Part shown: in pieces, positions 2,561-62,407 of the stretch
Numbering within the stretch: the first letter of the stretch is position 1
Layout: each line of letters opens with the position of its first letter
DNA from: Arctopsyche grandis
Lineage: Eukaryota; Arthropoda; Insecta; Trichoptera; Hydropsychidae
Direction: 5' to 3'
DNA: 64,000 bases
Assembly: GCF_051622035.1 (NCBI RefSeq)
Contig: NC_135365.1
Location: 3,214,501 to 3,278,500, forward strand
Notes under the pieces: model-generated
The model's input: only the letters and a program-made list of their open reading frames with translations
The model's database searches: none
What the model was told of the DNA's origin: nothing
Made by a program: the position numbers and the translations under genes

Positions 2561-2880
2561 ACTAGCCTCTTCTTACTTTCACTTGCGATTTCTAGTTAGA
2601 AGAAATTTGGGTTTTTTTCTGTTTTCAAACTTTGCCATTTTGCTCGGTTTGTTCATAAACATATGTATGTGGAAATGACGTCCGCCATTACGATGGTGAA
2701 AAATAATCGTAATAGACAAGTTTGAAAATACATCTATCGTCCACATTGTTCGCTATGTCAGATTTTAATTGTTTAAACGCCTATAACTTTTTCTTTTTTC
2801 ACTCTATCTTTTATATACCAATATATAGATTTAAGTTTCCTTCTGTCAAATCGGATTTGTATTGAGATATGCTAGATTAT
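2561..2880 (+). repeat. Repeat X, type B segment
   Basis: Divergent subfamily with CAAACTTTGCCATTTTGCTC, GACGTCCGCCATTACGATGG and AATAATCGTAATAGACA. The block ATTACGAT...ATCGTAAT is a short inverted repeat. Related type B copies lie at 51325-51705 (reverse) and 54265-54950. Confidence 0.65.
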
Positions 2881-5700: not shown

Positions 5701-6370
5701 ATGTACTATTCAATTCGGATTTAAAATGTTCGATTGTACTTCAATAAAATAATTGTACGACTTGTTTAATTTTATTTGCGAAAGATAAAGTTTATTTTAA
5801 TTGTAATAATTGGTTTGTTTTTAAAGGCTTTTTTAAATCAATGTAGTCGTCAGAAGAAGAACCAAAAATCTCGCGAAGCGTAAAATGTTTGTATTTTACA
5901 AAACAAATGTGATTCCGTCATTACATTTTAAAGTCAAAAATTTGGTAGCTGAATTTTGAAGTTTTTAAAAAACCTGAAAAATGAACTATATTTCTTCCTG
6001 GCTTCAAAAATTTAAAATGTGCTTCTAATTTAGATTCAAATTAAGGTATTCCAGCCGAAGTTCAATCTGATCTTGTAGTAAATATCACTTTAGATTAAAA
6101 ATGGCCAATTCATATACTCTATCATTAAAATTGTTCTTCTTTTCAGTATGTTATGAAAATTGTTTTAAATTATCTAAATACCAAGCTCTCGCCAAAATTT
6201 ATAAAAAAACCTGTATTGGACCGAAACAGGAGTTTGCATATATATCATTTGAAACTCGCATTAAAAAAAAAAATGGATGTGAATCTCGTGAGATAAAAAA
6301 AAAGATTGCGTGTGTTGCAAGTGTATTTTTTCATTCTCATTCTTATACATACATCAATAATCTTATCAAC
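5701..6370. other. Intergenic, upstream of NB-ARC copy 1
   Basis: AT-rich. The 90-codon ORF at 6101-6373 has low-complexity composition and no recognised similarity, so I do not call it a gene. Confidence 0.4.
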
Positions 6371-6372
6371 TG

Positions 6373-7305
6373 AAAAGTAATCAAGATTAGCCAAAATATC
6401 TTTTTACATCCAACGTACATATATTCCAATTCCAGTTTTACTTTTGAAATAGATCGCTCGTGTTGTAATTACTTTAGTACAGCTTTAAATTAACAAAAGT
6501 TTTAAAAACCAATAAGATATTCACCCATCAAGGATAAAACATATAATATAACATTTATGTGCTATTGTTTAATCAACGTGCTAATTCTTGCTAATATTCA
6601 TAACCATACATATATCATATAAGAGTGGAAGTGGTTCAAAATCAGCTCGCGAATTTTTGCCGGTCAGGAATTACATACATAGCTAATAACAATCTTGTTA
6701 AAAAATTAACACAAGAGTTGTTAAAAAGCCATTCAAGGTTATAAAAATATTGAAACATTATATGTATATAAAAATAAACATTGTGAAATTTATATAATAT
6801 ATTGTTCGCAGTTGATTACAATTAGAAACCGTTAAATAAGTGTACTACGTGTTATTATCCGACTCTTCTTTATAAATTGCAACATTTTGTCAAAGGTGAG
6901 TGAAAACTTTTTCTATGTATGAATGAGTATGCTTATTTTTTGAACAATTTTAACTTGAGTAAATTGAAATTCGAACTACATTTTTTTTAAAGCTACACTA
7001 TCAAATAAATAAGATAATTTTCTCGATTTGAAATTATTCATATTTTATTAAAAGTAAACATTTTCTAATTTCTATTCTAGTGTATAATATTGTAAATTAT
7101 TCGGCAGTATTCTCAATTAATTCTTAAATTATAATTAAAAAATTGTGTTTTAAAGACATTGAACTAAACTTTTTTTTTTGGATTTTGCTTTCTTTCGCAG
7201 TGATATTTTAATGTTGATCGTTTGAAAATACCCGTAACTGTCAAGATTTTCAGCTTAAGTCTTTATTTCTTTATTTTTAATTACGACTAGACTTCCTGTT
7301 AAAAA
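6373..7305 (+). promoter_or_regulatory. Promoter region and 5' UTR of NB-ARC/ankyrin copy 1
   Basis: This stretch aligns with 17826-18748 upstream of copy 2 (for example AAGATTAGCC, TTGATTACAATTAGAAAC, TCCGACTCTTCT), so the duplication carried upstream DNA. A 5'-UTR intron is visible at 6896-7200: donor AAAG|GTGAGTGAAAA and acceptor TTTCTTTCGCAG after a T-rich tract. Exon 2 starts at 7201 and holds about 105 bases of leader before ATG 7306. A TATA-like TATATAAT lies at 6791; the exact transcription start cannot be read. Confidence 0.55.
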
Positions 7306-7557
7306 ATGGCATCCGGCAGTGGCATTGCTCACGAAGAAAGTTCAGAAGATCAATTTATGCAGCCTATGGAATTGCCATTCGATGAGAGACTAACGACGTT
7401 CGTTCGGCATTTTGTAATCGAATTAGAATCCACGTTACAATTACATTATGGAATTTTGGCAGGTAGTATTCAAAAATCGGGAAAAATTCCAAAGGCTATG
7501 GAAACGGCAATAGGACTATCCGCAAATTCTTTTATCATCGATGGAGCAGATAAATAA
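7306..7557 (+). pseudogene. Copy 1, 5' coding segment before the LINE
   Basis: Eighty-three codons matching residues 1-84 of copy 2 closely up to METAIGL, then more divergently, without indels, up to the insertion point. The apparent stop at 7555 lies in the (TAA)n tail of the LINE, not in the gene. Confidence 0.85.
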
Positions 7558-7856
7558 TAATAATAATAATAATAATAGCTTTTATTCCAGACGATGAGGA
7601 GAATAGTGCAATCCCCAACGCCCATATAAATAATATATAGATAATAAAAAAAAAAAGTATTGAAAAATAGTAAACAAAAAATAAATAAATAAATACATAA
7701 GTAAATATATAAATATTACTGATAATAAATAATAATAATAATAAATAATAATAATAATAAATAATAATAATAATAAATAATAATAATAATAATTATAATA
7801 AATAAATAATAATAAATAAGTCTAATAATAATAAATAATAATAATTTTATGTCTAT

Positions 7857-10643
7857 TCAAGGCGGTCGGTGTAGCAGTTCCATCCATCGAACATACAATG
7901 AAGAATGCAAATGAGAAGATGCAGCAGCAAGAAGACAATTAGGCGACAAAAATATACGAAGACGTAGAGAGGCCGCTCTCATCCTGAGAATGGCTTCAAA
8001 ATGAGGCACATGCCCTTCTACAAACATTTGCGACGCGCTACAGCTCCTAGGTAACCCGAAAAGAGCACGGTAACAGTTGTTGTATTGTACCTTTATCTTC
8101 CTCATCGTCTCCCGCTTGTATCTGGTCCATAATTCACCAGTATAGAGGCTAGTACAAAAGGACATAAATAATTGTCTCTTAACCTCTACACTGGAGTGGA
8201 AAAATCGTCTAGCCAGCATATTTGCCCTTACACAAATGGCTCTTCTTTGTCTTTCGATGTCACGGTCATCATATAGATCCTCCGTCAGCAAGTGTCCCAG
8301 ATACTTGACTTCCCTAACAGTTTCAAGATTACGCCCATCTAAAATAATGTTGGGGACGAAATGAGGACCTCGACCGTATCGGAAAATCAATACCATGGAT
8401 TTACTCGTATTATACCGCATATTATGTTCTGCAGCATAACTCGAGCAAACTTCCAGGAGGCGATTCAGAGCTGACGGAGAAGGCGCCAAGATCACCATGT
8501 CATCCGCATAGCTGATGTGGTTACTGTATATTCCTCCTATGTGGCAACCAACTCCAGTCTGTCGAAGGCGATGTGAAAGTTCATCCATGTAAAGGTTGAA
8601 TAAGCCAGGAGACATTGACCCATCCTGTCTAACCCCGCACTTCAAAGAAGCGGGATCAGAGTATGAATTCCCCCAGCGTACATGGCTGAACTGATTCCGG
8701 TGCCAGGATGCTAAAAACCTCACGATTTGACTTGGAGCTCCCCTTTTTAACAGTTTGGACCAAAGTAGATCATGATCCACTCGATCGAAGGCCTTGGATA
8801 AGTCTAGAAAACAGGCGTATACGGAAGTTTTTCGCGATGTATAAAAATCCACTACCTGTTTTAAAGTGAAGATGGCCATGTCCGTCGACGAGTGCTTCTT
8901 GAATCCAAACTGCTCATCAGCTGACAAAAGGTAGCCACTTAATCTGCAACTCAATATCTTCTCTAGAATTTTAGATAAAATGGTGGCTAGAGCAATAGGA
9001 CGATAGCTGTCAATGACTGAAGCATCAAGCTTTGATGACTTGAGGACAGGAACAATAGTCGTCCTTGAAAACTCTTCAGGTACATGTTCATGCAAAATCA
9101 TCACATTGAAAAGCCTTGCTAATATGATGAAGAAATTCTTACCACTATGCAGAACATGATCCGTACTAATGCTGTCCCAACCAGTTGCTTTCCCTCCAGA
9201 CATTGACCTTAACGCAGTTTCAACTTCTTCGCCAGTTATGACGAAAAACGAATCTTCTGAGATAGACATAACCATATCAGCCCTGCCCATCAAATCCGAA
9301 ACAGACTCTTTGAAATGCTTGCTAAACATATTGGCAATACTCCGATGGTTGTAGATTCCATTAATATGTACCGGGATAGTACTGTTTACTGCTAAAATAG
9401 CATTTGTAGCATTCCAAAATTGCTTGAAGTCTTTATTTCTATGATATAGAGCTATCTTGTCCATAACACTTTGATTAGCGTTGCGTTGACATACCTTCAG
9501 TGCAATTTTAAAAACATGCCTAGCATGACGACGTCGGTCGGCAATTTCTCCTGTAGAAGGGCGGCCCGCTGCGACCCATTCTATAAATGAGTTCCTCGAA
9601 TCTAGGTAGCGTGCCGCTACCTGATCGTTCCAACCAGGAACCACCTTAAACCTCTTATCATTATACTGATGCGTTGGTGAAGAAAATGATGTCGAAGCGG
9701 CATTTCTCAACACATCTACAATCGAATGATAGAGGTAATTAATGGAAGTCCTATGCTCAGTATCAGTGCATTTTCTTAAATTGCAATTTTGAAGATTATT
9801 ATCACATACAATACGATCCAAAGAGTTAATTATTTCTAGTGAATATGCAATTATGTCGGAAGGGTTGCGTGGCATCCAAGTTGCAATGTCGCGATGACGA
9901 TAATTGTGATATGGTCTCGAACGATTCAGACCATTCGAAGCAATTATAACAAAAAGCGGACGATGATCTGACCATACTACGTCAGTGTGGACTTTAAAAT
10001 CTTGAATGGATCCTAAAATTCCTTCAGATGTGATACAGTGATCCAACCACCGTAAGGAGCCGTGTGCGTCACTAACATATGTAAATGTATCAGATGGAAG
10101 ACACGCATAATCTTGAATCCTCAAATGATTTTCTTCACAGAAGGATAGTAGTTCGTTCCAAAATAAAGAGCCAGGATGAGCATTAAAATCACCCATGACA
10201 ATAAAATTCGAGCGACTATGATCTTCGATAGCGGCATTAACAATGCCCAAGCAAGTAGTAAAATCTTCAAAGTTTTCTGGTTTTGCCGTCGGCATATATA
10301 CATTAATAATTAACAATTCAATATCACCTTGCTGAAGTTTAATGCAAAGTAATCTCGGATTATGAAGGTCAATTTGGGTGACTGTAAAAGTTTTTTTGTA
10401 CAATATACCAACACCACCATAGGGACGTCCAACTAAAGGTCCATTACCGCTGTCTACTGCAGATGTACCAGTGCCTTCAAATGATGGATGGAATCTTCTC
10501 AAGTATACAGTTTCAAATTCTAAAAACCATGTTTCTTGTAACAAAATAACGTCGGCCTCATTACATAGTTTGGAAATGTAGGATTCAGTACGTCGAAAAG
10601 AGCGACAATTATAGCTGACGATTGTTATTGTTTTGTCCCCCAT
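7857..10643 (-). CDS. LINE ORF2: AP endonuclease + reverse transcriptase
   Basis: An open frame encodes 928 residues from the ATG at 10643 (the frame itself is open up to 10757). Residues 1-225 form an apurinic-type endonuclease with SYNCRSF, LLQETW (about 35), MGDFNAHPG (about 148) and SDHRPL (about 224). The reverse transcriptase follows: SYRPIALATILSKILEKIL (about 544), CFLDLSKAFDRVDHDLLW, GVRQDGSMSPGLFNLYMDEL and the catalytic YADD (about 711). I chose ATG 10643 because it lies inside the end of ORF1 (35-nt overlap), a common LINE arrangement. The GVRQD sequence differs from the more usual GVRQG. No internal stop or frameshift means the insertion is young and the protein could be active if expressed. 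Confidence 0.92.
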   Translation of the reverse strand: MGDKTITIVSYNCRSFRRTESYISKLCNEADVILLQETWFLEFETVYLRRFHPSFEGTGTSAVDSGNGPLVGRPYGGVGILYKKTFTVTQIDLHNPRLLCIKLQQGDIELLIINVYMPTAKPENFEDFTTCLGIVNAAIEDHSRSNFIVMGDFNAHPGSLFWNELLSFCEENHLRIQDYACLPSDTFTYVSDAHGSLRWLDHCITSEGILGSIQDFKVHTDVVWSDHRPLFVIIASNGLNRSRPYHNYRHRDIATWMPRNPSDIIAYSLEIINSLDRIVCDNNLQNCNLRKCTDTEHRTSINYLYHSIVDVLRNAASTSFSSPTHQYNDKRFKVVPGWNDQVAARYLDSRNSFIEWVAAGRPSTGEIADRRRHARHVFKIALKVCQRNANQSVMDKIALYHRNKDFKQFWNATNAILAVNSTIPVHINGIYNHRSIANMFSKHFKESVSDLMGRADMVMSISEDSFFVITGEEVETALRSMSGGKATGWDSISTDHVLHSGKNFFIILARLFNVMILHEHVPEEFSRTTIVPVLKSSKLDASVIDSYRPIALATILSKILEKILSCRLSGYLLSADEQFGFKKHSSTDMAIFTLKQVVDFYTSRKTSVYACFLDLSKAFDRVDHDLLWSKLLKRGAPSQIVRFLASWHRNQFSHVRWGNSYSDPASLKCGVRQDGSMSPGLFNLYMDELSHRLRQTGVGCHIGGIYSNHISYADDMVILAPSPSALNRLLEVCSSYAAEHNMRYNTSKSMVLIFRYGRGPHFVPNIILDGRNLETVREVKYLGHLLTEDLYDDRDIERQRRAICVRANMLARRFFHSSVEVKRQLFMSFCTSLYTGELWTRYKRETMRKIKVQYNNCYRALFGLPRSCSASQMFVEGHVPHFEAILRMRAASLRLRIFLSPNCLLAAASSHLHSSLYVRWMELLHRPP

Positions 10644-10922
10644 TAATATAGTTTTTTCGGAAACGTCGGAAAACAATTCCGGTCGGCCATAAATCTTGCA
10701 CGAGCAGTTTTGTTGCATTCGTGGCTTCAGTTGCAACAATGAAAGACTTGAAACCACATTTTGTTCGAGATGGTAGTTCTTTTAAGGTGAATTTGAAATT
10801 TACTTTTTTCTTTAAATATGTACTAATTATTTCGACATTCGTCTCTAACGAGAATCTAGAGATGTAAATTTCAGATTCTGGAATTACAGCTTGCAATTCA
10901 GAATCCTTGCTTTTTCTTTTAA
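10609..10922 (-). pseudogene. LINE ORF1, C-terminal remnant
   Basis: About 100 codons end in DLWPTGIVFRRFRKNY, a terminal pattern typical of insect LINE ORF1 proteins (nucleic-acid chaperone role). The 5' part is missing because the element is truncated; the frame runs into host-gene sequence at about 10925. The stop at 10609-10611 overlaps the start of ORF2 by 35 nt. Confidence 0.75.
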
Positions 10923-10925
10923 ACT

Positions 10926-13004
10926 TTTTCAAACACCCATAACAGAGCCATTTGAGGTTATAGGAAAAAACAAATCGTTACAGTATTATCAAATAGTCTA
11001 TAGTTTTCATCGATTAAAAGAAAATGGAAGACGTACGTTTGTGGACATCGCCATGGACGTCTTTGCAAGTTTCGAATTTCAATTTGCCGGCATCACTTCG
11101 GAGAGAGGAGACGAAAAGGCGATACAAAGAGTGGCGAGGGATGCAGCGCAAAGATTCTTAAATGGATTCAAAAGCAAAGAAAAAAAATTGATTAAATTAA
11201 AAAACAAAATGACACCTCAATTACCTGTTCCAAACTACGAAATGAACGCTCTTTTTCAAAAGTTGTAGAGGGAAAATCCAAATCTAAATCGATATTAATT
11301 TCCGATAAACTTTGGAAGCGTGGTTATGATATTTCGTACAAATGTACAAAATCTCACGAATGTAAAAATAAAAATCGTGTTTGGAAAACATCTGATCTTT
11401 TTAAAAAGGCTGGGGTCGCAGAAAAAATGATGGATTCCGAAGATTACGATGTGTATCTGACAAATAAATCTGATTGGGAAAATTACGGCTGTCGGTTTTT
11501 TTTCCCAGATGAAGATAAAACTTTTAAACCAACAAAAAGTAAGATGAGTAAAAGTGCTTGCATGTATCCAGAAAATTTGAAAAATAAAGATTTTTATGAA
11601 TCAAAACGAAAAAAAAAATTAGAATTAATTAATAACGAAGACCAACATGCAATTCAGCGTAGAACTTTAAAACTGGTTGAAGAAACACATACAGATTTTG
11701 AGCAATACAAAGAGAAATTCGGAATAGAAAATGAAGAGCTATTGAGCACAATAAAGGCATTTAATTCCGAGTTGATTCAGAAAAGTTTAATAACAGCAGC
11801 GGGACATCGTGATTTAATAGCATCAAAAAACAAAAAGTTTCAACATAAAATTAAAGAGGAGATCGTTTCACAGGTCACAGGGGTGATCGTATCAAAAACC
11901 AAATATTTGAAAGAAATACTTGACGAAAATAGAAAATCAGTTTTATACCGCGTAAAGAATCCTGCGATATCATTTTCGGGAAGAGAAAATGAATTGAAAG
12001 AATTACATGAAGCACTAACGAACAAAATATCCGGCGTGATTTCACAGGCAGCCTCAGTTGTTGGTCTCGGTGGGGTCGGAAAAACGGAGTTAGCAAAAAA
12101 ATATGTTGCAAAATACAAGAGTTATTACTTTAATATCATCTTCATCAGTGCGGATACAAGTGAAAATCTTTTAGAGTCATTTCGGTCGTTAGCGGTAAAA
12201 ATTGAATTGAAGTTGATCTCAAATGATGGAACAGAACGAGACCTAACAAATATTATGGAAAATATTTACGAACGTTTAAACGAAAGCGGAAAAACTCTTG
12301 TAGTTTTTGACAATGCTCAGGAATACAAAGATATAAAAAAATTCATTTTCAATAATTCTTATGATGAAAATAGGGTATACACTTTGATCACATCTCGATC
12401 TAAACTATGGGATATAGGAGAGAAGGGTGTTATTACAACGATTCAATTGCACATATTTACAGAAGATGAGGCTTTAAAATATTTAAGAGAATCTTTAGTA
12501 AACGAAGATGAGGATGCTCTCAAATCATTGATGACTGTGATGCAAAGGTTGCCATTGGGGCTTAAGCAAGCAGTTGGGTTTATTTACCAGCAGAATAAAA
12601 ACAACAAAAATTTCAATGTTAATAATTATATAAATTTGTATAGCGTGAAATGTACAGAAGTACTCCATAAGGGTCAAGGTGTAGTTGATGATTCGTACAA
12701 TAAAACAATAGCAACTACATGGAGAGAAACAATGCAAAGAATTGAAGAGAGTGGTGAATGTGGAATATTGGCCGTATTACTATTAAAAATCATGGCATAT
12801 TTTGCTTCTGACGATATAGATTTTAAGGATATGTTTTCCAAATTAGAACAAGATGTCGATAAATTATATGACGCTGTTGATATGCTTCATAGTTACAGCA
12901 TGATCGATATTAAAAAGGGGTTAATAAATGTGCACCGGCTGGTTCAGAAAGCTATCCAAATATGCTTAATTGAGAAGAAGGACGAAGAAAATGTTCTCAA
13001 TTAA
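10926..13004 (+). pseudogene. Copy 1, N-terminal remainder, coiled coil and NB-ARC segment
   Basis: From LFQTP the frame matches copy 2 to 11253; the 5-bp insertion then shifts it, and the copy-2-like frame resumes at about 11259 and is open to the TAA at 13002. The NB-ARC signatures are present: FSGRENELKELHEAL, Walker A GLGGVGKTELA (about 12065-12097), Walker B TLVVFDN (about 12295), LITSRSKLW (sensor-like) and LPLGLKQAVGF (GLPL-like). The last is followed by a C-terminal NVHRLVQKAI motif comparable to the MHD position. An ATG at 11427 (MMDSEDYDVYL) opens 525 codons that still hold the whole ATPase domain, so an N-terminally shortened product cannot be excluded. Confidence 0.85.
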
Positions 13005-15578
13005 GCAATAAAGCTGATAGAGTGTTGCGAATTTGATGTGCATGTCATGAGTGTATTGGAACACTCGTCCAATTACCCCGAAATAGTGAAAACCAATTTC
13101 AAAAATTCCAAGTATGGTGCTGCGAATACAACTGCAATCGATTTATTCATAATTCATCGCTGTGATACTGTTGGGATCGCTAAAATATTAAAACACATTA
13201 AATGTGATTTAAATCGCTTCATACAAACTGCCTGTTTCTATGGTAACTGGGAGGTTTTGAGATTTCTACTCAATAAAGGTGTTGATTTAAATTATAAAAA
13301 TTCATCAAATGAAACATCGTTACATTGGGCTGCTAAAGGTGGCAATGTGAGAGTTTTGAAATGTCTTCTTGATAAAGGTTTAGATGTAAATATGACTGAC
13401 AATGACGGTGAAACACCACTCTTCTGTGCTACTTTGTATAATAAAATTGAAGCACTAAAGCTTTTGTTGAAATCGGGCGCAAATCCAAATGCCATGAATT
13501 CAAGAGGAGAAACAGTGCTTCTGAATCTCGCAGTAAAACATGCTGTCGAGGTATTTAAATTGATTTTGAGCGAGGGACCTGACCCAAATGATTTCTCGTC
13601 ATTACAGCATGCTACTATTTGTGATAGTCTCGACATTATGCAGTTGCTGATTGATAAAGGTTTTGATGTCCATATGAATGATATAAACGAATCCCTCTTC
13701 GATACTGCTATGTATAAAAAAACTGAAGCACTTATGTTTTTGTTGAAATCGGGGGCAGATCCGAATGCCATAAACACGAGAGGAGAAACAGTACTTTATC
13801 ATCTCGTAGAAAAAGATGCTGTGGAGGAATTCAAATTACTTCTGAGAGAGAGTGCCGATCCAAATATTCGAGTTAAAAATAATTTATCGCCATTACATCA
13901 TGCTGCAATGTGTGGAAGTCTAAAAATTCTGGAATTGTTAATCGATAATGGTTTTGATGTCAATATGACTGACATAAACGAGTCAACACCCCTATTATGT
14001 GCTGCTATGTATAATAAAACTGAATCTCTTCAGCTTTTGTTGAAATTGGGGGCGGATCCAAATGTGATAAACTCAATAGGAGAAACAGTACTACATCAAT
14101 TAGCAAGAAATGATGCTGTGGAGGAATTCAAATTACTTCTGGGCGAGAGTGCCGATCCAAATATTCGAGATAAAAATAATTTCTCGCCATTACATCATGC
14201 TGCAATGTGTGGAAGTCTAAACATTCTGGAATTGTTAATCGATAATGGTTTTGATGTCAATATGACTGGCCTAAACGATTTAACACCCATATTATGTGCT
14301 GCTATATATAATAAAACTGAAGCACTTCAGCTTTTGTTGAAATTGGGGGCGGATCCAAATGCTATAAACTCAACAGGAGAAACAGTATTACACCACTTCG
14401 CAAAAATTGATGCTTTGGATGAATTCAAATAACTTCTGGACGAGTGTGCTGATCCAAATATTCGAGATAAAAATAATTTCTTGCCTTTACATTACGCTGC
14501 AATTTGTGGAAATCTAAAAATTCTGGAATTTTTAATTGATGAAGGTTTTGATGTCAATATGACTGGCATAGACGGTTCAACACCCCTTCTTTTGACCGCT
14601 TTTTATGGTAAATTTGAGGCAATTAAATGTCTACTTAAGAACGGGGCTGATCAGAAAATCGTATCTAAACTAGGAGAGACTTTAATACATAAAGCTGCAT
14701 ATGGATGTAATCTCGATGCCTTTAAATTCATCTTAGAATTGGGGTTTGATTTAACGGTTATTGATAAATTAGGAAATTCGTTGTTGCATTTAGCTGTACA
14801 AGGAAGAAATGAAGATATCATTAAGTTATTGGTTGAAAAAGGAATTCATCCAAATACTACTGATAAATTTGGATGCACCCCTCTACACGATATTTCCTAT
14901 AGTTGCTGGAATATCACCCCAGATATAGTTAAATTACTACTTAAACTGGGCGCCAACCCAAATGCAACCAGCAAATCGAACTGCACGCCCCTGCACTTTG
15001 CATCAACCGGAAACAATCGTGTAGCAGCTACTGTATTGATAGAAGAAGGTGCTGAAATCAATATCCGTAACAAATTAGGCCGATCTGCTTTACATTATGC
15101 TTCATCAAAATGTCATTGCAAAATCATTGAGCTTCTACTGATAAACGGTGCCGAAGTAAACGTGTTTGATTCTAAAGGACGAACACCACTTCATCACCTC
15201 TCACGTAATGGTAAATTTAAAGACGTGAAACTGTTGCTGGAACATGGCGCCGATCCTCGCAACTTGGAAAAAGCGGGCCGCTCACTGCTGCATCTGGCCG
15301 CCGTGCACTTCAGATACCAAGCTGTAGATTATGTTATCAGAAACGTAGAGAGCATTGATGTGAATGGCCGAGATGTCGAGGGCAAAACTCCTCTGCATTT
15401 AGCAGCCAAGTGTGGAAGAGTCTCCATCGTTGGTCTCCTCGTCCGAAATGGGGGCGACACTAGCGCCACGGACAAAAGCGGAAGAGCGCCTTTAGACTTG
15501 GCAACTAAATTTAACCGTGCCAAAGTCACGGACTTCTTCACTTCAAACTTTAAAGGTGATTCGAATACGTCATTTTGA
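13005..15578 (+). pseudogene. Copy 1, ankyrin array
   Basis: In frame with the NB-ARC part after the stop at 13002. About 23 consecutive 33-residue ankyrin repeats (for example ETSLHWAAKGGNVRVLKCLL, SPLHHAAMCGSLKILELLI). Three-repeat modules recur at 13545, 13821, 14118 and 14415; the last three are spaced exactly 297 bp. An in-frame TAA at 14430-14432 splits the array; the remainder is open to 15578 and becomes more canonical and GC-richer towards its end (KTPLHLAAKCGRVSIVGLL). Confidence 0.88.
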
Positions 15579-15809
15579 TACATGTTTGCGTCGAACCGAT
15601 TCATAACAAACTTTTTTTCTAATTACAGCCACTCAATGATCTAAATGATGAAATTTCTGCATCAATCTAAATGATGAAATTTCTGCATCAATCTAATTCA
15701 TACAAACGTCATTTTGAAGGAAAAAATGCAGTCTTGCACGAAGCTATAGGTGGAAATGTTTTTTTAAAAATTAAATAATGTCATGTAATTTCATATTTTA
15801 AGAGTTGGT
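15579..15809 (+). other. 3' flank of copy 1 with 26-bp tandem duplication
   Basis: CTAAATGATGAAATTTCTGC is present twice at a 26-bp period (15641 and 15667). A frame reading NAVLHEAIGGN at 15716-15777 looks like the start of another ankyrin repeat and ends in TAA. Confidence 0.5.
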
Positions 15810-16047
15810 AAATATTTATTTTATTTATTTATAATTTTAGCTATTAGCTAATTAAAAAAGAAATACATCTTAATAACTTAAATCTAAAATTCTATATTTA
15901 ACTTTATTTTATTTAACTTATATGTACTGTCCCTCACAGAGGTGTCTCTTCGCTCCTCGCAAGAATGCATCCATGGTCTTAGAAGACCTGATGCACTCAG
16001 GGAGGGCGTTATACATTAGTACACCCCTGTGAAAAACACCCCCCCAG
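15810..16047 (-). mobile_element. LINE 3' fragment (reverse transcriptase C-terminus)
   Basis: On the minus strand the frame reads GGVFHRGVLMYNALPECIRS and ends at the LINE C-terminus. It closely parallels the fragment at 56935-57555 (GGVFHRGVQMYNALPESIRN). The 3' tail is (AAAT)n-like. Heavily 5'-truncated. Confidence 0.75.
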
Positions 16048-16054
16048 CTGTCTT

Positions 16055-17040
16055 TCTTTTTACATACCTCCTTTACGTTTCACATGGTTTTCGTGTCAGT
16101 GGTCATTTTTATCTCTTATCCGATCGTTTTCATACTTTGCCATATTGCTCATTTTGGTCATCAATATACGTAAATGTATCGTCTGCCATTACGTTGGAGA
16201 TAAAATATCGTATACAAAGCGTAACAAATATCCAGAATCTCGGATACGGTGACGTTTATGACGGTACGTAAGGCTACCATAATCTATCTTCAAACTTTTC
16301 GCCTTGATATGCTATTTCAGATTTTAATTGTTTAAACGCCTATAATTCACTCTATATTTTTTAAAATTTGCTCTATACGTTCTCGTTATCTCTAATATTT
16401 TAAAATTTATAGTTTTGACTCTCATATGTACATATATATAAATTTCAAATTTGGCGTCTAGCTTCATGTAATGTAATACAAGATATATATTGATTTTTGG
16501 CCAAATATGTCAAATCTGACATTTCACGGCTTAAAGTATATCTCTTCACGGAGTTTTATCTGCGAGATAAGTATTCAATAAGAAGTTATGTTGTATCTAA
16601 TTGTTAATATGATTTACAATAAGCTTACATACATTTAGTTTTTTACAATAAGCTTACATACATACATCACATACATTAATTTTTAGTTAGCAGCTGATTT
16701 AATTTATCTGATGATTGAAAAGTTCATTTCTGTAAATACATAAACTCATTTATGGACAATCACTCATTGATAATCTATTCTTAAATCAAATCATTAAAGC
16801 ACTCTTAGTATTAATAAACTATTCTAAACTGCATAAATGAGTACATATGTATCTCCGGCTGCAACTCATAACCTCAAATTTAATTGTTTAATCCTCCAAA
16901 ACAAACTTTCTAACCAATACAAGTTACATACATATGTACACAGATCAAACAGTGATAGTTTTATTTTTAGTTATCAGCTGATTTAATTTATCTGATGATT
17001 GAAAAGTTCATTTCTGTAAATACATAAACTCATTTATGGA
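16055..17040 (+). repeat. Repeat X, copy (type A) with duplicated 3' block
   Basis: Starts TTTTTACATACCTCC; colinear with the copy at 1908. Its terminal block (CAGCTGATTTAATTTATCTG, GATTGAAAAGTTCATTTCTG, TACATAAACTCATTTATGG) occurs twice, about 282 bp apart (16687 and 16975), as it does in the 45560 copy. Confidence 0.75.
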
Positions 17041-17590
17041 ATTTTAAGATTCAAACATTTTTGCAACTGGACTTGATGACTATGATTTATAGAAATACTA
17101 CATATTGAGATTTTAAAGTGCCTTTAAAGTCATATAGATTTGTATATAATTTTAAGATATATAAAAAAACTCAAGTAAAAAAAAAAAAGTGTTTATAAAA
17201 AACTTAAGTAAAAAAACTCATGTAACAAAATAAATGTATATAAAAAATAATGTACTAAAATATAAAAAATAAATGTATATAAAAAACTTTAGTAAAAAAA
17301 CTATATTAAAAAAAGTCAAGTAAAATAAATGTATAAAAACAAATAATGTACTAAAATATAATAAATAATTAAATAAATATATAATAAATTAAATACAATT
17401 AATTTATTAAAATAAAAAGGCAATTTAAACAATATTTCAACAACAAATGTACAAATGTGTGGGATTAAAATTTCAATCAAAATGATTTCAATGATTGGGG
17501 TTTCAATCAAAAAGATTTCAATGATTGGGGTTTCAATCAAAATTATGATCCCAGCTTAAACTAATTAAATATATTACTAAGAGGTATGGG
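17041..17590. repeat. AT-rich dispersed repeat
   Basis: Low-complexity A-rich DNA, then AATTTAAACAATATTTCAAC and TTTCAATGATTGGGGTTTCA (the latter iterated). It matches 43600-43970 in the same order, with ATTATGATCCCAGCTTAAAC at both places. Confidence 0.55.
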
Positions 17591-17825
17591 CCGCCTTGGT
17601 ATGTATGTGATGATCTAAAAGATACAATTAACTTGTGTCAATTCATGATTCATTTAATGATTCATATATCAATTCCATTCCGAAATCACCCGTTGAAATC
17701 AACGGGCACAAAACTAGAATTAAAAACAGAGAATGAAATAAAAAACACATCAGATAAAAACTCATGCGTGTGTTGATAATATATTTTTGATTTAAAATAC
17801 ACACGCATGCACATTAATACTATTA

Positions 17826-18748
17826 AAAAGTAAATAAGATTAGCCGTGATATCGTTTTTCATCCAAAGTAAATTTTAGATTTGTCATTTCAGTTTTACTT
17901 TCGACATTGATCGCTCGTGTTGTATTCAATTTGACACCGCTTTTACAATTCACATAAGTTTTAATAGTAAATACAAATTAATTCATTAAGTATAATATAT
18001 TTAAATAAATATATATTAATTTATCAAGTATAATAAAGTTAAAATTATTGATATTACATATTCTTTTATTAAGTATAATATAGTTTAATTAATAATATTA
18101 CATATTAATGCTAAAGTTTAAATTACGTGCTTATTCTTGCTAATGTTGTAAAAAGAAAACATCCAAGGTTGTAAAAATATTTAAATATAACAGATTAAAA
18201 TCACCAGTGTGAATTTCTTATAATGTATTGTTCGTAGTTGATTACAATTAGAAACTGTTAAATAAGTCTACGAATTATTTATCCGACTCTTCTGCAGGAG
18301 AAATTTGTAAATTCCAACATTTTGCTAAAGGTGAGTGAAAACTTTTGAATATGCTTATTCGAACATTATTTTTAAATTCTTTTTGAAATTCGAACATTAT
18401 TTTTAAATCTAGAAAATCAAACAAATTTTATTAACAGCCACATTCACTGCATTACTTGTAAGCAAATGTTTTCGTTTTTAAATTTTGAATTTTTCATATT
18501 TCGTTTTTGAACTTATAATCAGCAGTATGCATAAAATTGTAATTTATTCGGTGTTCTAAATTAATTGATAAATTATAATTAGAAAATTGTGTTTCAAAGA
18601 CATTGAACTTAACTTTTTTTTTGGATTTTGATTTCTTTCGTAAAGATATTTTAATGTTAATCGTTTGAAAATACCCGTAACTGTCAAGATTTTCAGCTTT
18701 AGTCTTTATTTTTTTATTTTTTATTTCAACTAGACTTCCTGTTAAGAA
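17826..18748 (+). promoter_or_regulatory. Promoter region and 5' UTR of NB-ARC/ankyrin copy 2
   Basis: Homologous to 6373-7305. The 5'-UTR intron is conserved: donor AAAG|GTGAGTGAAAA at 18331. The acceptor region has changed from TTTCGCAG to TTTCGTAAAG, so the likely AG is at 18644-18645. The leader then continues to ATG 18749. Conservation of the donor and T-rich tract between paralogues supports a real intron. Confidence 0.55.
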
Positions 18749-21700
18749 ATGGCATCCAGCAGTGGCATTGCTCCCGAAGAAAGTTCAGAAGATCAATTTA
18801 TGCAGCCTATGGAATTGCCATTCGATGAGAGACTAACGATGTTCGTTCGGCATTTTGTAATCGAATTAGAATCCACGTTACAATTACATTATGAAATTTT
18901 GGCGGGTTATATTACAAAATCGGGACCAATTCCAAAGGTTATGGAAACGGCATTAGGACTGTTTTTGAATTACTATATTTACAAGGGATTACATAAAGTA
19001 GTTCAACTTTTTCAAACACCCATGGAAATGCCATTTGAGGTTATAGAAAAAAACAAATCGTTACAGTATTACCAAATAGTCTATAGCTTTCATCGATCAA
19101 AAGAAAGAGGAAGACATGCGTTTGTGGACATCGCCATGGACGTCTTTGCAAGTTTCGAATTTCAATTTGCTGGCATCACTTCGGAGAGAGGAGACGAAAA
19201 GGCGATACAAAGAGTGGCGAGGGATGCAGCGGAAAGATTCTTAAATGGATTCAAAAGCAAAGAAGAGCCTAATACAGATGCTTCATTAATTGAAAAAAAA
19301 TTGAGTAAATTTAAAAACAAAATCATACCTCAATTACCTGTTCCAAACTACGAAATGAAAGCCCTTAAAGTTGTAGAGGGAAAATCCAAATCTAAATCGA
19401 TATTAATTCCCGATAAACTTTGGAAGCCTGGTTATGAAATTTCGTACAGATGTAAAAAATCTCACCGATGTAAAAAAAATCGTGTTTGGAATACATCTGA
19501 TATTTTCGAAAAGGCTGGGGTCGCAGAAAAAAAGATGAATTCCGAAGATTACGATGTATATCTGACAAATAAATCTGATGGAGAAAAATACGGCTGTCGG
19601 TTTTTTTTCCCATATGAAGATGTGAAACAATATAAAAATACAAAACTAACAAAAAGGAAGATGTGTAAAAGTACTTGCATGTGTCCAGAAAATTTGAAAA
19701 ATAAAGACTTTTATGAATCAAAACGAATAATAATATTACAATTAATTAATAACGAAGACGAACATGCAATTCAGCGTAGAACTTTAAAACTGGTTGAAGA
19801 AACACATAAAGATTTTGAGCAATACAAAGAGAAATTCGGAAAAAATAATGAAGAGCTGTTGAGCACAATAGAGATATTTAATTCCCAGTTGACTGGAATT
19901 CAGAAGAGTTTAATAAAAGCAGCAGAACATCGTGATTCAATAGCATTAGAAAACAAAAACCTTCAACTAGAAAATCAAAAAGAGATTGTATCTCAAGTTA
20001 AAGAGAATATTGAATCACAATTCAATGTTTTGGAAGAAGCAATAAGGCAAAACCAAATTAAAAGTAAACGAGTTCTATTCCGCGTAAAGAATCCTGCGAT
20101 ATCATTTTCGGGAAGAAAAAACGAATTGAAAGAATTACACGAAGCACTAACGAACAAAATATCAGGCGTGATTTCACAGGCAGCCTCAGTTGTTGGTCTC
20201 GGTGGGGTCGGTAAAACTGAATTAGCAAAAAAATATGTCAAAAAATACAAGGATTATTACTTTAATATTGTCTTTATTAATGCGGAAAAGAGTGAAACCC
20301 TATTAGAGTCATTTCATACGCTAGCGATACAAATTGGATTAAAGTTCTCAAATATTGGAAGAGAACGAGACCTAACAGAAATTGTTGCAGATACTTACGA
20401 ACGTCTAAATGGAAACGGAAAAACTCTTGTAGTTTTTGACAATACTGAGGAATACAAATACATAAAAAAATTCATTTTTAATAATTCCTATGGTGAAAAT
20501 CGCGTACATACTTTGATCACATCGCGGTGTAAAATATGGGACATAGGAGACAAGGGCGTTATAACAATGATTCAGTTGCAAATGTTTACTGAAGAAGAAG
20601 CCATGAAATATTTGAGAAAATGTTTAGAGAACGAAGATGAGGATAATTTGAAATCATTGATGGATTTGTTGCAAAGGTTTCCATTAGGACTTAAGCAGGC
20701 TGTCGGATATATAAAACAGCAAAAAAAATACAGTAAAGTAAGAAAGGATGAGGAAACATTTAATGTTAAGGATTATATAAATTTGTATGACGTAAATTGG
20801 ACAAAAGTACTCCATAAGGGTCAAGGTGAAGTTGACGATATATACGAAAATACAGTAGCGACTACATGGAGAATCACGATGCAAAAAATTGAAGAGAGTG
20901 GTGAATGTGGAATATTAGCCCTATCGATATTAAAATTGCTGGCATATTTTGCTTCTGACGATATAGATATTAGAGCTATGTTTTACAAATTAGAACAAGA
21001 TGTCGACAAATTATATGACGCTGTTAATCTGCTTCATGATTACAGCATGATCAGTAATGAAGAGTGGATGGTAGATGTGCATCGGCTCGTTCAGAAAGCT
21101 ATACAAATATACTTAATTGAGAAGAGGGACGAAGAAAATATTCTGAATGAAGCAATAAAGCTGATAGAGTGGTGCGATTTTGATGTGCATGTCGTGAGTG
21201 TATTGGAACATTCATCTAATTACCCCGAAATAGTGAAAAACAATTTTAATAGTTCCAAGTATGGCGCTGCGAATACAACTGCAATCGATTTATTAATAGT
21301 TCATCGTCATGAAACTATTGGGATCGCTAAAATATTAAAACACATTGAATGTGATTTTAATCGGTCCATACATACTGCCTGTTACTACGGCAATTTGGAG
21401 GTCTTGAGATTTTTAATCAATAAAGGTGTTGAGTTAAATTATAAAAATTCGCATAATGAAACATTATTACATGTGGCTGCTAAAGGTGGCAATGTGAAAA
21501 TTCTACAATTGCTTATCAATAAGGGTTTGGATTTAAATATTGCTGACAATGACGGCGAAACACCAATCTTTTGTGCTGCCAGTTTTAGGCGTGGTAGAAC
21601 TGAAGCATTAAGGCTTTTGTTGAAATCCGGAGCAAATCCAAATGCATTAAACTCAAGAGGACAAACAATTCTCCATACTCTCGCAGGATGTGATGCTTTG

Positions 21701-22018
21701 GAGCAATTTAAATTGCTTCTCAGTGAAGGAGTCGATCCCAATACTCGAGATAAAAATGGTCGCTCACCATTACATTGTGCTGCAATGTGTGGAAATGTTA
21801 CAATTATGCAATTGCTTCTCGATAAAGGGCTTGATGTCAATTCGTTTGATAACGACCGCGACACACCGCTCACCATTGCCGCGTTGAATAGTGGACATGA
21901 AGCAGTAAAGTTCTTGTTGAAATTGGGAGCGAATCCAAATGCAATAAACACAAGAGGAGAATCAGTGCTTCATCACCTCGCTGAAATAATGCTGTGGAAA
22001 TATTTAAATTACTTCTGA
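18749..22018 (+). CDS. NB-ARC/ankyrin STAND (NLR-like) protein, copy 2
   Basis: Single coding exon of 1089 codons; the start aligns with copy 1. Residues 1-175: an acidic start, then a mostly helical domain (FDERLTMFVRHFVIELES; ITSERGDEKAIQRVARDAAE) that I do not recognise. About 231-314: a Cys/His-rich segment (CKKSHRCKK, CKSTCMCPEN). About 328-437: heptad-like coiled coil. About 446-793: NB-ARC with FSGRKNELKELHEAL, Walker A GLGGVGKTELA (about 482), Walker B LVVFDN (about 561), LITSRCKIW (about 589), FPLGLKQAVGY and an MHD-like VDVHRLVQ (about 774). From about 825: ankyrin repeats. By family knowledge NB-ARC proteins are nucleotide-switched sensors that oligomerise; an intracellular recognition role is inference. 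The frame is lost at about 21984 by a 1-bp deletion, so this ORF ends with a foreign tail (MLWKYLNYF). Confidence 0.85.
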   Translation: MASSSGIAPEESSEDQFMQPMELPFDERLTMFVRHFVIELESTLQLHYEILAGYITKSGPIPKVMETALGLFLNYYIYKGLHKVVQLFQTPMEMPFEVIEKNKSLQYYQIVYSFHRSKERGRHAFVDIAMDVFASFEFQFAGITSERGDEKAIQRVARDAAERFLNGFKSKEEPNTDASLIEKKLSKFKNKIIPQLPVPNYEMKALKVVEGKSKSKSILIPDKLWKPGYEISYRCKKSHRCKKNRVWNTSDIFEKAGVAEKKMNSEDYDVYLTNKSDGEKYGCRFFFPYEDVKQYKNTKLTKRKMCKSTCMCPENLKNKDFYESKRIIILQLINNEDEHAIQRRTLKLVEETHKDFEQYKEKFGKNNEELLSTIEIFNSQLTGIQKSLIKAAEHRDSIALENKNLQLENQKEIVSQVKENIESQFNVLEEAIRQNQIKSKRVLFRVKNPAISFSGRKNELKELHEALTNKISGVISQAASVVGLGGVGKTELAKKYVKKYKDYYFNIVFINAEKSETLLESFHTLAIQIGLKFSNIGRERDLTEIVADTYERLNGNGKTLVVFDNTEEYKYIKKFIFNNSYGENRVHTLITSRCKIWDIGDKGVITMIQLQMFTEEEAMKYLRKCLENEDEDNLKSLMDLLQRFPLGLKQAVGYIKQQKKYSKVRKDEETFNVKDYINLYDVNWTKVLHKGQGEVDDIYENTVATTWRITMQKIEESGECGILALSILKLLAYFASDDIDIRAMFYKLEQDVDKLYDAVNLLHDYSMISNEEWMVDVHRLVQKAIQIYLIEKRDEENILNEAIKLIEWCDFDVHVVSVLEHSSNYPEIVKNNFNSSKYGAANTTAIDLLIVHRHETIGIAKILKHIECDFNRSIHTACYYGNLEVLRFLINKGVELNYKNSHNETLLHVAAKGGNVKILQLLINKGLDLNIADNDGETPIFCAASFRRGRTEALRLLLKSGANPNALNSRGQTILHTLAGCDALEQFKLLLSEGVDPNTRDKNGRSPLHCAAMCGNVTIMQLLLDKGLDVNSFDNDRDTPLTIAALNSGHEAVKFLLKLGANPNAINTRGESVLHHLAEIMLWKYLNYF

Positions 22019-23259
22019 ACGAAGGAGCTGATCCCAATATTCTAGACGCAGATAATCGTTCGCCATTACATTGGGCTGCATTGGGTGGTAGTGTTAGTGT
22101 TATGGAATTGCTTTTAAAAGAAGGACTTGATATCGATATACCTGATGAAGACGGGGATACACCACTCCTCATAGCTGCATCGGAAAGTGGACATGAAGCA
22201 ATAATGTTTTTGTTGGATTCGGGAGCAAATTTTAATGCAACTAACGAAAATGGAGAAACAGTGCTTCATCACCTCACAGAAAATGATGCTGGGGAAATAT
22301 TTAAATTACTTCTGAACAAAGGAGCTGATCCCAAAATTCTCGATGAAGATGATCGCTCGCCATTACATTGGGCTGCACTGCATGGTAATGTTAGAGTTAT
22401 AGAATTGCTTTTAAATGAAGGACTTGATGATTATGTAAATATACCAGATGAAGACGGGGATACACCACTCCTCCTTGCTGCATCAAATGGTGAAATTGAA
22501 GCATTTTTGTTTTTGTTGAAGTCGGGAGCAGATCCAAATGATATTAATGCAAAAGAAGAAACAGTACTTCACCACCTCGCAGAACATGATGCTGCGGAGG
22601 TATTTAGATTACTTCTGAACGAAGGAGTTAATCCCAACATGCTTGATGAAGAAGTTCGATCGCCATTACATTGGGCTGCAATGGGTGGAAGTGTTACAAT
22701 TATGCAATTGCTTCTCGATAATGGGCTTGATGTCAATTCGTCTGATGAAAACGGCGACACACCACTCACCATTGCTGCGTTGAACGGTAAACATGAAGCA
22801 GTAAAGTTTTTGTTAAACTGGGGAGCGAATCCAAATGCAATAAACAAAAGAAGAGAATCAGTGCTTCATCACCTCGCAAAAAATGACGATGTAGAGGAAT
22901 TCAAACTAGTCCTGAGCAAGGGAGCCGATCCAAATATTCGAGATGAAAATGGTCACTCACCATTACATTGGGCTGCAAGGGATGGTAGTGTTGGTATTAT
23001 GCAATTGTTTGTCAAAGAAGGAGGTGGCTTAAATTTGTCTGACAGCAATGGTGATACACTCTTCTCTTAATTAAATAAAGTCTCTCTAAGCTAGGAGAGA
23101 TTTTAATTCAATGCTGTATATGGATGTAATCTCAATGCCATAAAATTCATCCTAGAATTGGGATGTGATCTTACAGCTGTTGATAAATTTGGAAATTCTG
23201 CATTGCGTGCAGCTGAGCTTGGAAGAAATGAAAACGTCATTAAGTTATTGGCTGAATAA
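21994..23259 (+). pseudogene. Copy 2, continuation of the ankyrin array in the next frame
   Basis: The frame from about 21994 to 23070 encodes roughly eleven more ankyrin repeats (RSPLHWAALGGSVSVMELLL, NGDTPLTIAALNGKHEAVKF). It joins the upstream array directly if one A is restored in the CTGAAATAATG stretch at 21981-21991. After the stop at 23068, sequence to about 23259 (NLNAIKFILELG; KFGNSALRAAELGRNENVIK) still resembles copy 1 at 14665-14830 but is out of frame. Either the gene is decaying from its 3' end or the single-base change is an assembly error in an A run. Confidence 0.8.
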
Positions 23260-25489: not shown

Positions 25490-26468
25490 AGGTACCAAAT
25501 TACTCAATTTAGTCAAAAATTAAATAAATCATCTGATAACTAAAAATAAAACTATCATTGTTTGATCTGTGTACATATGTATATCAAGCTTGTATTGGTT
25601 AGAAAGTTTGTTTTGGAGGAATAAACAATGAAATTTGAGGTTATGAGTTGCTGCCGGAAATACATATGTATACTCATTTATGTCGGGAACCTTACAGTTA
25701 AGAATAGTTTATTAATACTAAGATTGCTTTAATGATTTGCTTTAAGAATAGCTTATCAATGTATGATTGTCCATAAATGAGTTTATGTATTTACAGAAAT
25801 GAACTTTTCAATCATCAGATAAATTAAATCAGCTGATAACTAAAATGTGATGTATGTATGTATGTAAGCTTATTGTAAAAAACTAAATGTATGTAAGCTT
25901 ATTGTAAATCATATTAACAATTAGATACAACATAACTTCTTATCTCGCAGATAAAACTCCGTGAAGAGATATACTTTTAGCCGTGAAATGTCAGATCTGA
26001 CATATTTGGCCAAAAATCAATATATATCGTGTATTACATTACATGAAGCTAGACGCCAAATTTGAAATTTATATAAATGTACATATGAGAGTTAAAACTA
26101 TAAATATTTAAATATTAGAGAAAACGAGAACCTATAGAGCAAATTTTATAAAATATAGAGTGAATTATAGGCGTTTAAACAATTAAAATCTGATATGGCC
26201 ATATCAAGGCGAAAAGGTTGAAGATAGATTATGGTAGCCTTACGTACCGTCATAAACGTCACCGTATCCGAGATTCTGGATATTTGTTACGCATTGTATA
26301 CGATATTTTATCTCCAACGTAATGGCAGACGATACATTTACGTATATTGATGACCAAAATGAGCAATATGGCAAAGTATGAAAACGATCGGATACGAGAT
26401 AAGAGATATAAAAAAATGACCACTAACACGAAAACCATGTGAACTGTATAAGAGGTAAGTAATAAAAA
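25490..26468 (-). repeat. Repeat X, reverse copy (type A)
   Basis: Reverse-complement copy: ...TTACGTACCGTCATAAACGTCACCG, CAAAATGAGCAATATGGC, AACGATCGGATA, ending GAGGTAAGTAATAAAAA. The subterminal block (CATCTGATAACTAAAA) is present at about 25531 and again at about 25815. Confidence 0.75.
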
Positions 26469-37601: not shown

Positions 37602-37629
37602 ATATTCAGGAAGACCGAACTTTACTTCA

Positions 37630-38889: not shown

Positions 38890-38902
38890 AAGCCTATAAT
38901 AT

Positions 38903-62400: not shown

Positions 62401-62407
62401 TTACAAA

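Follow-up and report, generated by a model that had tools for sequence, protein, structure and literature searches.

Two damaged NB-ARC–ankyrin genes in Arctopsyche grandis belong to a large family of putative NLR-like sensors with relatives in intracellular bacteria

The locus

The window, a stretch of 64,000 nucleotides from the caddisfly Arctopsyche grandis, carries two tandem paralogues (gene 1 and gene 2, Table 1) that share 78.6% DNA identity over 3.75 kb by self-BLAST, much as an initial annotation made from the sequence alone had proposed. A view of both as whole genes was rejected because of frame breaks, stops and a LINE in the coding region. Gene 1 of this assembly is broken by the LINE insertion, by a frame break near 11258 and by stops at 13002-13004 and 14430-14432, with its homology to gene 2 picking up again at about 10919, past the LINE. 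Gene 2 loses its frame at about 21985-22018, after seven ankyrins, and meets a stop ending at 23070, the later sequence being present as a remnant only. Neither gene, as assembled, is an intact copy. The site in gene 2 that matches the putative 5'UTR intron of gene 1 is altered and lacks the CAG, as judged by upstream comparison.

Table 1. Features of the two paralogues and of the LINE insertion, in positions of the window
Feature	Positions	Strand	Basis and remarks
5' flank and head of gene 1	6252..7517	+	copy at 17711-18960, 74% identity; self-BLAST
Gene 1, putative 5'UTR intron	6896..7200	+	GTGAGT ... ttctttcgcag; by eye
Gene 1, N-terminal domain, first part	7306..7554	+	83 codons, 80% identical to gene 2
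LINE insertion in gene 1 coding region	7555..10918 (bounds approximate)	-	(AAT)n-type tail at left end (+ strand coordinates)
LINE frame, 974 aa	7857..10781	-	endonuclease (PF03372) and reverse transcriptase (PF00078)
Gene 1, N-terminal domain, remainder	10919..11257	+	runs to frame break near 11258
Gene 1 frame: later N-region, coiled-coil-like stretch, NB-ARC, HRLVQ	11196..13004	+	TAA at 13002-13004
Gene 1, NB-ARC	11997-12536	+	Pfam
Gene 1, ankyrin array, about 13 repeats	13005..14432	+	TAA at 14430-14432; 297-bp period at 13586-14587
Gene 1, about 11 more ankyrins and C-terminus	14433..15578	+	repeat model
Gene 2, main frame, 1089 aa	18749..22018	+	open reading frame
Gene 2, N-terminal domain, residues 1-290	18749..19618	+	belongs to a family of 61 genome loci; also in some intracellular bacteria
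Gene 2, variable coiled-coil-like linker, residues ~320-440	19706..20068	+	alignment, by eye
Gene 2, NB-ARC, residues 466-665	20144..20743	+	GLGGVGKT, LVVFDN, TSR; E 3.1e-7, 30.4 bits
Gene 2, region with HRLVQ (21080-21094)	20909..21148	+	end of bacterial FxSxx_TPR model match
Gene 2, ankyrins 1-7, main frame	21368..21988	+	repeat model
Gene 2, about 11 ankyrins in other frame	21985..23070	+	297-bp period at 21597-23022
Gene 2, later-sequence remnant	23085..23259	+	80% to gene 1 14664-14840

Domain architecture

The initial annotation had named two findings that would count against it, a scaffold of bacterial or symbiont DNA and a profile search that fails to recover NB-ARC, and neither occurred. 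The contig measures 30.8 Mb in a 476-Mb genome with arthropod-like features, ruling out a bacterial scaffold, and NB-ARC (PF00931) exceeds the curated Pfam cut-off of 23.5 bits in both gene 1 (39.9 bits, E 3.7e-10) and gene 2 (30.4 bits, E 3.1e-7), each of which retains the P-loop, DN and TSR motifs in the alignment. The annotated HRLVQ motif and coiled coil, the latter by eye, can likewise be seen when the two genes are aligned. The ankyrins are present as claimed, but their number shifts from the annotated 17-23 to 13 + 11 in gene 1 and 7 + 11 in gene 2 under a repeat model built in this analysis. The architecture read from the sequence is a conserved N-terminal domain, a variable coiled coil, NB-ARC, a predicted winged helix and an ankyrin array.

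With an N-terminal domain, a STAND NTPase and superstructure-forming repeats, these are NLR-like STAND proteins in the broad sense. They fall outside the animal NLRs (NACHT-LRR), as NACHT stays below its Pfam cut-off wherever it matched (13.5-19.1 bits vs 26.7) and Pfam finds no LRR family, ankyrins standing in their place; they also fall outside the APAF1/Dark type, which has a CARD and mostly also WD40, neither matched by Pfam. Among the Pfam matches there is no death-fold, TIR or other known output domain.

The N-terminal domain is real and conserved, and lacks a name in the libraries searched: nothing in Pfam rises above the cut-off, and the best profile match in the PDB (E 0.26) is taken as chance. 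The annotation's suggestion of a new effector domain is doubtful, because in several bacterial relatives the domain is placed between another head and a P-loop or NB-ARC. These extra heads are OTU-like (below cut-off), ankyrin, or of no assigned family. A role as an adaptor or oligomerisation part would fit such an order better than that of a catalytic effector. The Cys/His segment noted in the annotation does not hold as a general family feature, and a zinc-binding Cys/His domain was rejected as one, since the segment is absent in 6 of 12 aligned members (L011, L013, L014, L015, L017 and L021).

The family across the genome

Across the genome there are 73 NB-ARC matches and 61 loci with the N-terminal domain; 44 of these loci have a frame of 1000 aa or more free of stops, and 17 do not. 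The N-terminal domain shares a stop-free frame with NB-ARC at 43 of the 73 NB-ARC loci, the two window genes counted in, and the coding regions lie in single frames spread over nine contigs. For D. melanogaster, Table 1 of PMC2246300 gives a single NB-ARC, counted by a different method from the 73 here. Among 12 pairs of copies, Ka/Ks ranges from 0.17 to 0.42 for the N-terminal domain and from 0.09 to 0.56 for NB-ARC (at most 0.30 in 10 pairs); heads and NB-ARC are under purifying selection in most pairs. Support for the annotated notion of NLR-like insect sensors with an ankyrin recognition array comes from some 60 loci elsewhere in the genome, not from the two damaged copies in the window.

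The insect side of all searches is this one genome. Pattern scans of viral contigs and genome contigs with the two window paralogues, or with gene 2 alone, returned no relatives, and a pattern scan that found three loci is no gauge of absence, later genome searches having found many more. The open-access PMC titles and abstract openings covered yielded no description of such an insect family, though one may exist outside them.

Diversification of the ankyrin arrays

The arrays are built from, and grow by, in-frame units of 297 bp, each comprising three ankyrins (99 aa). L024 and L025, two paralogues with near-identical heads, carry 21 and 43 ankyrins, respectively. Protein identity between units of L025 averages 0.81; a value of 0.85 or more is reached by 15 of its 78 unit pairs, and by 1 of 3 in L024.

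Amino-acid change between units concentrates at positions 2, 3, 5, 13 and 14 of the repeat, which, after designed ankyrin work, we take to be the binding face. This holds in pooled tests and is weaker in single genes. In intact genes minus L025, pN is 0.149 and pS 0.065 at contact positions, against 0.064 and 0.179 at framework positions, giving a pooled pN/pS of 2.29 vs 0.36, a ratio in which, for units of the same gene, mutation and gene conversion are mixed. The input was confined to codon pairs within stretches where neighbouring units share 70% identity or more, and seven of 13 intact paralogues (L018, L027, L013, L011, L015, L014, L017) and the main frame of gene 2 contributed no data. 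The window genes alone give 0.84 at contact and 0.66 at framework positions, the contact value not exceeding 1; in L021, pN is lower at contact (0.042) than at framework positions (0.097), and in L024 the interval includes zero for positions 13 and 14 and for positions 10, 13 and 14.

Bacterial relatives

Outside the insect, the N-terminal domain occurs in 18 of 343 Rickettsiales genomes and 11 of 16 genomes of Aquirickettsiella's order, and in none of 397 other genomes drawn from the same phylum; within this sample, bacterial relatives are confined to the two orders. The core is found in a Wolbachia, in Aquirickettsiella and in Mesenet, there without the NTPase. Fourteen insect rows, all from one genome, form one clade in trees of the N-terminal domain (100/100) and of NB-ARC (98/99). 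The trees leave the direction of transfer unsettled because the former is midpoint-rooted and the latter has as outside rows only three bacterial FxsT-type sequences, two with long branches. The bacterial rows are 20 returned loci, a subset of the matches, and N-terminal domain matches shorter than 200 aa (L045) are left out, as are the fragments of gene 1.

A search of phage records with residues 1-517 of gene 2 found none, and the Wolbachia relative L031 hit a single phage WO record, via residues 5-177 (the OTU-like head) only. The N-terminal domain of L013 had no tblastn match in plasmids. A viral contig match, L034 (E 3e-6), whose locus has phage-like frames, is taken as chance. The best reading of these sequence relationships is that the N-terminal domain–NB-ARC core was exchanged with intracellular symbionts, in one direction or the other.

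Interpretation

We consider it fairly probable that the window genes are damaged representatives of a large family of insect NLR-like (STAND) sensors, most of whose other members have open frames, and that the core of this family has been exchanged with intracellular symbionts. We infer an immune role and a nucleotide switch: the ankyrin array would bind a foreign or altered protein, binding would free the NB-ARC switch from a closed, ADP-held state, exchange to ATP would lead to oligomerisation, and the clustered N-terminal domains would recruit or activate an output. The arrays would change by gain or loss of three-ankyrin units together with selected binding-face changes. If the core was indeed exchanged with intracellular bacteria, these are the foremost candidates for the target that the family detects or for the agent that manipulates it.

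Several other readings have to be weighed. A symbiont N-terminal domain–NB-ARC gene may have been taken up and multiplied as a domesticated effector that binds symbiont or self proteins in a non-immune job, such as germline, sex-ratio or cytoplasmic-incompatibility conflict. The single insect clade in both trees is consistent with one transfer, and the restriction of bacterial relatives to two orders and the single-frame coding regions point the same way; however, the trees do not fix the direction, and array diversification is shown by sensors too, leaving this account possible but unlikely. Single-frame coding regions on nine contigs, many repeats and the nearby LINE might also suggest mobile-element cargo, with copy number owed to transposition and not to selection for diversity. 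This is very unlikely: of 10 loci searched, 5 have upstream sequence in common with gene 2; at 40 of the 61 loci another locus lies within 100 kb; and in none of the 12 pairs does Ka/Ks for head or NB-ARC reach 1.

Ankyrins are widespread as protein-binding modules, and the proteins could be scaffolds without an immune role whose NB-ARC is vestigial. Both window genes nevertheless keep the P-loop, DN and TSR, the lowest Ka/Ks among four segments falls on NB-ARC in 6 of 12 pairs (on the N-terminal domain in the other 6), and the arrays change at the binding face, which makes this reading less likely still. The least probable is a dying family, in which the window pair and most other copies are pseudogenes: both window copies are broken and 17 loci lack a long open frame, but 44 of 61 retain one and the copies remain under constraint.

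To our knowledge, classical NLRs are not standard in insect immunity. If true, a family of some 60 loci that diversifies through its arrays would show an insect to have re-evolved, or borrowed, the receptor logic that plants and fungi use. It is a tentative further thought that this insect has a large, fast-diversifying cytosolic NLR-like repertoire in the style of plants or fungi, derived from a symbiont-exchanged core and policing symbionts, while the symbionts, with the same core behind protease-like heads, may jam or mimic host sensors. The presence of the same core in a Wolbachia, Mesenet (there without the NTPase) and Aquirickettsiella also provides a molecular interface of arthropod hosts with intracellular bacteria that can be tested.

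Comparison with known systems

APAF1/Dark and plant NLRs share NB-ARC with this family, and profile searches of the PDB give weak matches to CNL9/Sr35 and MLA13 (E 1.6e-4 to 0.021); their CARD, WD40 and LRR are not among the Pfam matches here. The bacterial FxSxx_TPR model (FxsT, NF040586) aligns with residues 452-797 of gene 2, that is, NB-ARC and the following region (E 1.3e-41), at scores of 143 bits for gene 2 and 162 bits for L013 that lie below its 300-bit cut-off; it has TPRs in place of ankyrins and leaves the N-terminal domain unmatched. Phage WO encodes eukaryotic association module proteins including gwv_1093 and a NACHT-ankyrin protein (PMC5062602), and an ankyrin and NB-ARC protein in WOCfeF1 (PMC10438800). 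These resemble the present family in joining a STAND domain to repeats, in being common to arthropods and symbionts, and in an unsettled direction of transfer.

PMC4986451 describes fungal NLRs whose ankyrin, TPR or WD repeats are highly conserved. The insect family differs in its host, in its N-terminal domain and in exchanging units of 99 aa that each hold three ankyrins, and its variation lies between paralogues and units, whereas that of the fungal genes lies among wild isolates. Against the fungal standard of 85% internal repeat identity, L025 averages 81% and is mostly below, by a procedure that is not identical. What the two have in common is a NACHT or NB-ARC switch, ankyrins at the C-terminus, repeats that resemble one another within a gene, variation in repeat number, here between paralogues (21 vs 43), and selected changes on the concave binding face, here in the pooled test though not in every gene alone.

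A damaged gene pair in arthropod DNA

Both tandem paralogues harbor an NB-ARC domain over the Pfam cut-off (E = 3.7e-10 in gene 1, 3.1e-7 in gene 2) and strong Pfam ankyrin arrays, counted as 13+11 and 7+11 repeats, respectively, with a repeat model built in this analysis. Pfam profiles thus recover the NB-ARC and ankyrin parts that the initial annotation had read in the pair, and that observation is real and important, though it was made on two damaged copies. Gene 1 is interrupted by a LINE, downstream of which it carries one frame break and two stop codons. The open frame of gene 2 (1089 aa) spans the unnamed N-terminal domain (N-domain), NB-ARC and seven ankyrins, and beyond the frame break that follows, later sequence is kept as a remnant only. 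Ka/Ks between the two is 0.54 (861 codons), with branch values of ~0.65 for gene 1 and ~0.54 for gene 2 by parsimony against five paralogues; given its branch value, gene 1 does not look as if it had evolved neutrally for long.

Coding and upstream sequences both align between the paralogues, indicating duplication of a several-kb block that included upstream sequence. Silent-site divergence is low in windows over residues 81-400 and high (0.36-0.54) over residues 401-720, which suggests gene conversion between the two genes in the head.

Coordinates of features in the window and at related loci
Feature	Position	Strand	Remarks
Gene 1	from 7306	+	
Gene 2	from 18749	+	
LINE cutting gene 1		opposite	frame of 974 aa; Pfam endonuclease and reverse transcriptase
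Coding alignment, gene 1/gene 2	10919-14558/19002-22737		78.6% identity (self-BLAST)
Upstream flanks, gene 1/gene 2	6252-7517/17711-18960		74% identity (self-BLAST)
Gene 2 residues 81-400	18989-19948		silent-site divergence 0.03-0.13
Dispersed repeat, at least five copies	1901-2555, 16054-16991, 25519-26468, 28200-28975, 45558-46174		~81-92% identity (self-BLAST)
Another dispersed repeat	37011-37606, 38898-39490, 61820-62401		93-97% identity; partly LINE-like C-terminus by eye
Adjoining paralogues L024 and L025	C11, ~4.66-4.70 Mb		natural case of array growth
Second STAND family, L009	2072-6112		
Second STAND family, L020	5194-8076	-	
Second STAND family, L022	1484-6949		
L042 frame	1369-2712		448-aa Rickettsiales protein; N-domain after signal-peptide-like start (by eye)
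N-domain match, bacterium of Aquirickettsiella's order	G352:C1:799092-799850		inside an 11299-aa open frame

The simplest reading of the window is arthropod nuclear DNA, based on the LINE inside gene 1, splice-acceptor-like sites and an ND1-like fragment. Gene 1 has a splice-acceptor-like site ~100 nt 5' of its ATG, and six of 13 paralogues (L018, L019, L024, L025, L027, L030) show one by eye; the sequence at this spot is changed in gene 2. The mitochondrial ND1-like fragment, found in a nuclear contig, best matches chain 8b9z_H (102.9 bits; next 79.2), an entry that we take to be fruit-fly complex I. The probable assignment to insects, among arthropods, draws on the same features and on the initial annotation.

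A family with constrained heads

The window (G000:C11:3214501-3278500) belongs to an assembly of 476 Mb in 189 contigs that contains at least 73 NB-ARC matches, every one over the Pfam cut-off. The N-terminal 311 residues of gene 2 match it at least 69 times, at sites that collapse into 61 loci; both match counts are lower bounds. D. melanogaster has one NB-ARC gene, according to PMC2246300. At 44 of the 61 N-domain loci a frame of 1000 aa or more is free of stops, and 40 of the 61 have a neighbor within 100 kb. N-domain and NB-ARC share one stop-free frame at 43 of the 73 NB-ARC loci, gene 1 and gene 2 included (median 1634 aa; nine contigs), and 24 are without an N-domain match within 5 kb upstream.

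Ka/Ks was determined in four segments for 12 pairs drawn from 14 proteins. Values were 0.17-0.42 for residues 1-175, 0.17-1.14 for residues 176-445, 0.09-0.56 for NB-ARC (0.30 or less in 10 of 12 pairs, the top two being L024/L025 and L014/L017), and 0.24-0.75 for the remainder including the repeat arrays, a rough estimate since array alignment may mispair units. The lowest segment was NB-ARC in six pairs and the N-domain in the other six.

The same genome holds a second STAND family whose N-terminus differs (GRDYE...FDD by eye). Of its three loci, L009 and L020 have NB-ARC over cut-off, and L009 and L022 have TPRs. The family comes near the bacterial FxSxx_TPR proteins (FxsT, NF040586; L009 276.8 bits, L022 299.1 bits, cut-off 300); residues 1-443 of L009 found no match in a PDB search.

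An N-domain shared with intracellular bacteria

In the window genes and three scanned paralogues, no Pfam family above cut-off covers the N-domain, and its profile found no convincing relative in the PDB. A profile of 12 insect members reached three bacterial loci, in the Wolbachia of the mite Tyrophagus putrescentiae (E = 3e-17), Candidatus Mesenet longicola (1e-14) and Candidatus Aquirickettsiella gammari (2e-8). A second profile (11 insect rows plus these three) was run against Rickettsiales, Aquirickettsiella's order and a sample of its phylum. It matched 18/343 Rickettsiales genomes (two in the profile itself; three matches weak, E = 1.8e-9, 2.0e-5 and 9.4e-4), 11/16 genomes of Aquirickettsiella's order (one in the profile itself) and 1/398 of the phylum sample, namely Aquirickettsiella. 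Rickettsiales and Aquirickettsiella's order are presumably both host-associated intracellular bacteria. Residues L29, F32, G59, F133, S135, F136, E137, Q139, T144, D159, G211, K212, G257, Y281 and R284 are invariant in 14 insect + bacterial rows.

The initial annotation suggested that the N-terminus could be a new effector domain. It is indeed unnamed in the Pfam and PDB searches, but bacterial architectures disfavor a catalytic-head role. Insect proteins begin with the N-domain, whereas in several bacterial proteins another part precedes it. In the Wolbachia protein this head is OTU-like (19.7 bits; below cut-off, 23.3) and is followed by N-domain and P-loop, after which the contig ends. The 1905-aa Aquirickettsiella protein opens with a head without assignment (similar by eye only to a Ulp1-type protease) and continues with N-domain, NB-ARC and DUF7779 (26.8 bits; cut-off 27), with ankyrins absent from its listed Pfam matches. 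The Mesenet protein (363 aa) consists of N-domain and coil only. A pattern search found a P-loop in the N-domain frame at 14 of 20 bacterial loci (L036-L055); in all four chosen for Pfam (L039, L043, L047, L049), NB-ARC exceeds the cut-off, with DUF7779 E values no higher than 0.011. In one of the four, ankyrins precede the N-domain, and one has a weak match to OTU. L043 thereby becomes the fifteenth locus with an NTPase part; the other five lack a P-loop in the available frame, in some cases because the frame or the locus ends. What insect and bacterial proteins most often share is therefore N-domain plus NB-ARC, and domain order makes the N-domain more plausible as a part of the switch or its signaling face than as the catalytic head, though it may also have an enzymatic role.

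The 14 insect rows, from one genome only, form one clade in both the N-domain (100/100) and NB-ARC (98/99) trees, as do those of Aquirickettsiella's order, unlike the Rickettsiales rows. This insect monophyly fits a single exchange with the sampled insect lineage, the tree root being insecure. PMC5062602 leaves transfer direction open in related phage WO cases, and reports homologues of the gwv_1093 N-terminus in mosquitoes, ants, beetles and others. That this N-terminus is the N-domain is a strong lead, as a candidate identity; if so, the exchange would be partly known already, and the novelty would lie in how large the insect family is and how its arrays diversify.

Arrays that grow and change on the binding face

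The L024 and L025 heads are near-identical (Ks 0.03-0.13), with 21 ankyrins in L024 versus 43 in L025. The L025 array consists of 13 to 14 head-to-tail 297-bp units of exactly three ankyrins (~90% DNA identity, mean protein identity 81%), a period also present in gene 1 and gene 2 (3.4 and 4.8 copies).

Contact positions were preset as 2,3,5,13,14, which we take to be those randomized in designed ankyrins. Across 13 full L025 units they make up 15% of codons and carry 42% of the amino-acid differences, which is the top of 33 phases and is matched by 4/5000 random position sets. Between adjacent units, pN/pS at contact versus framework positions is 1.58 versus 0.60 in L025 (43/10000 random sets as high), 2.29 versus 0.36 in the other intact genes (147/10000) and 0.84 versus 0.66 in the window genes (11/10000), where replacement is thus concentrated at contact positions, yet does not exceed the silent rate. 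With the preset, the bootstrap interval of the difference excludes zero for L025, L024, L021, L030 and the pools. The effect in L021 stems from silent sites, its contact pN being lower than its framework pN, and the L024 interval includes zero with positions 13,14 or 10,13,14. Position 10, outside the preset, is likewise high.

The interest lies in the family: some 60 loci whose heads are under constraint and whose arrays gain whole three-ankyrin units and vary at the binding face. From this anatomy we infer an immune role. Such binding-face and repeat-number change is close to that of fungal NLRs, whose ankyrins, according to PMC4986451, are positively selected on the concave face and polymorphic in repeat number. 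The same paper puts highly conserved repeats at 0.8% of metazoan repeats; its 85% repeat-identity mark is reached by 15 of 78 L025 unit pairs, most lying below.
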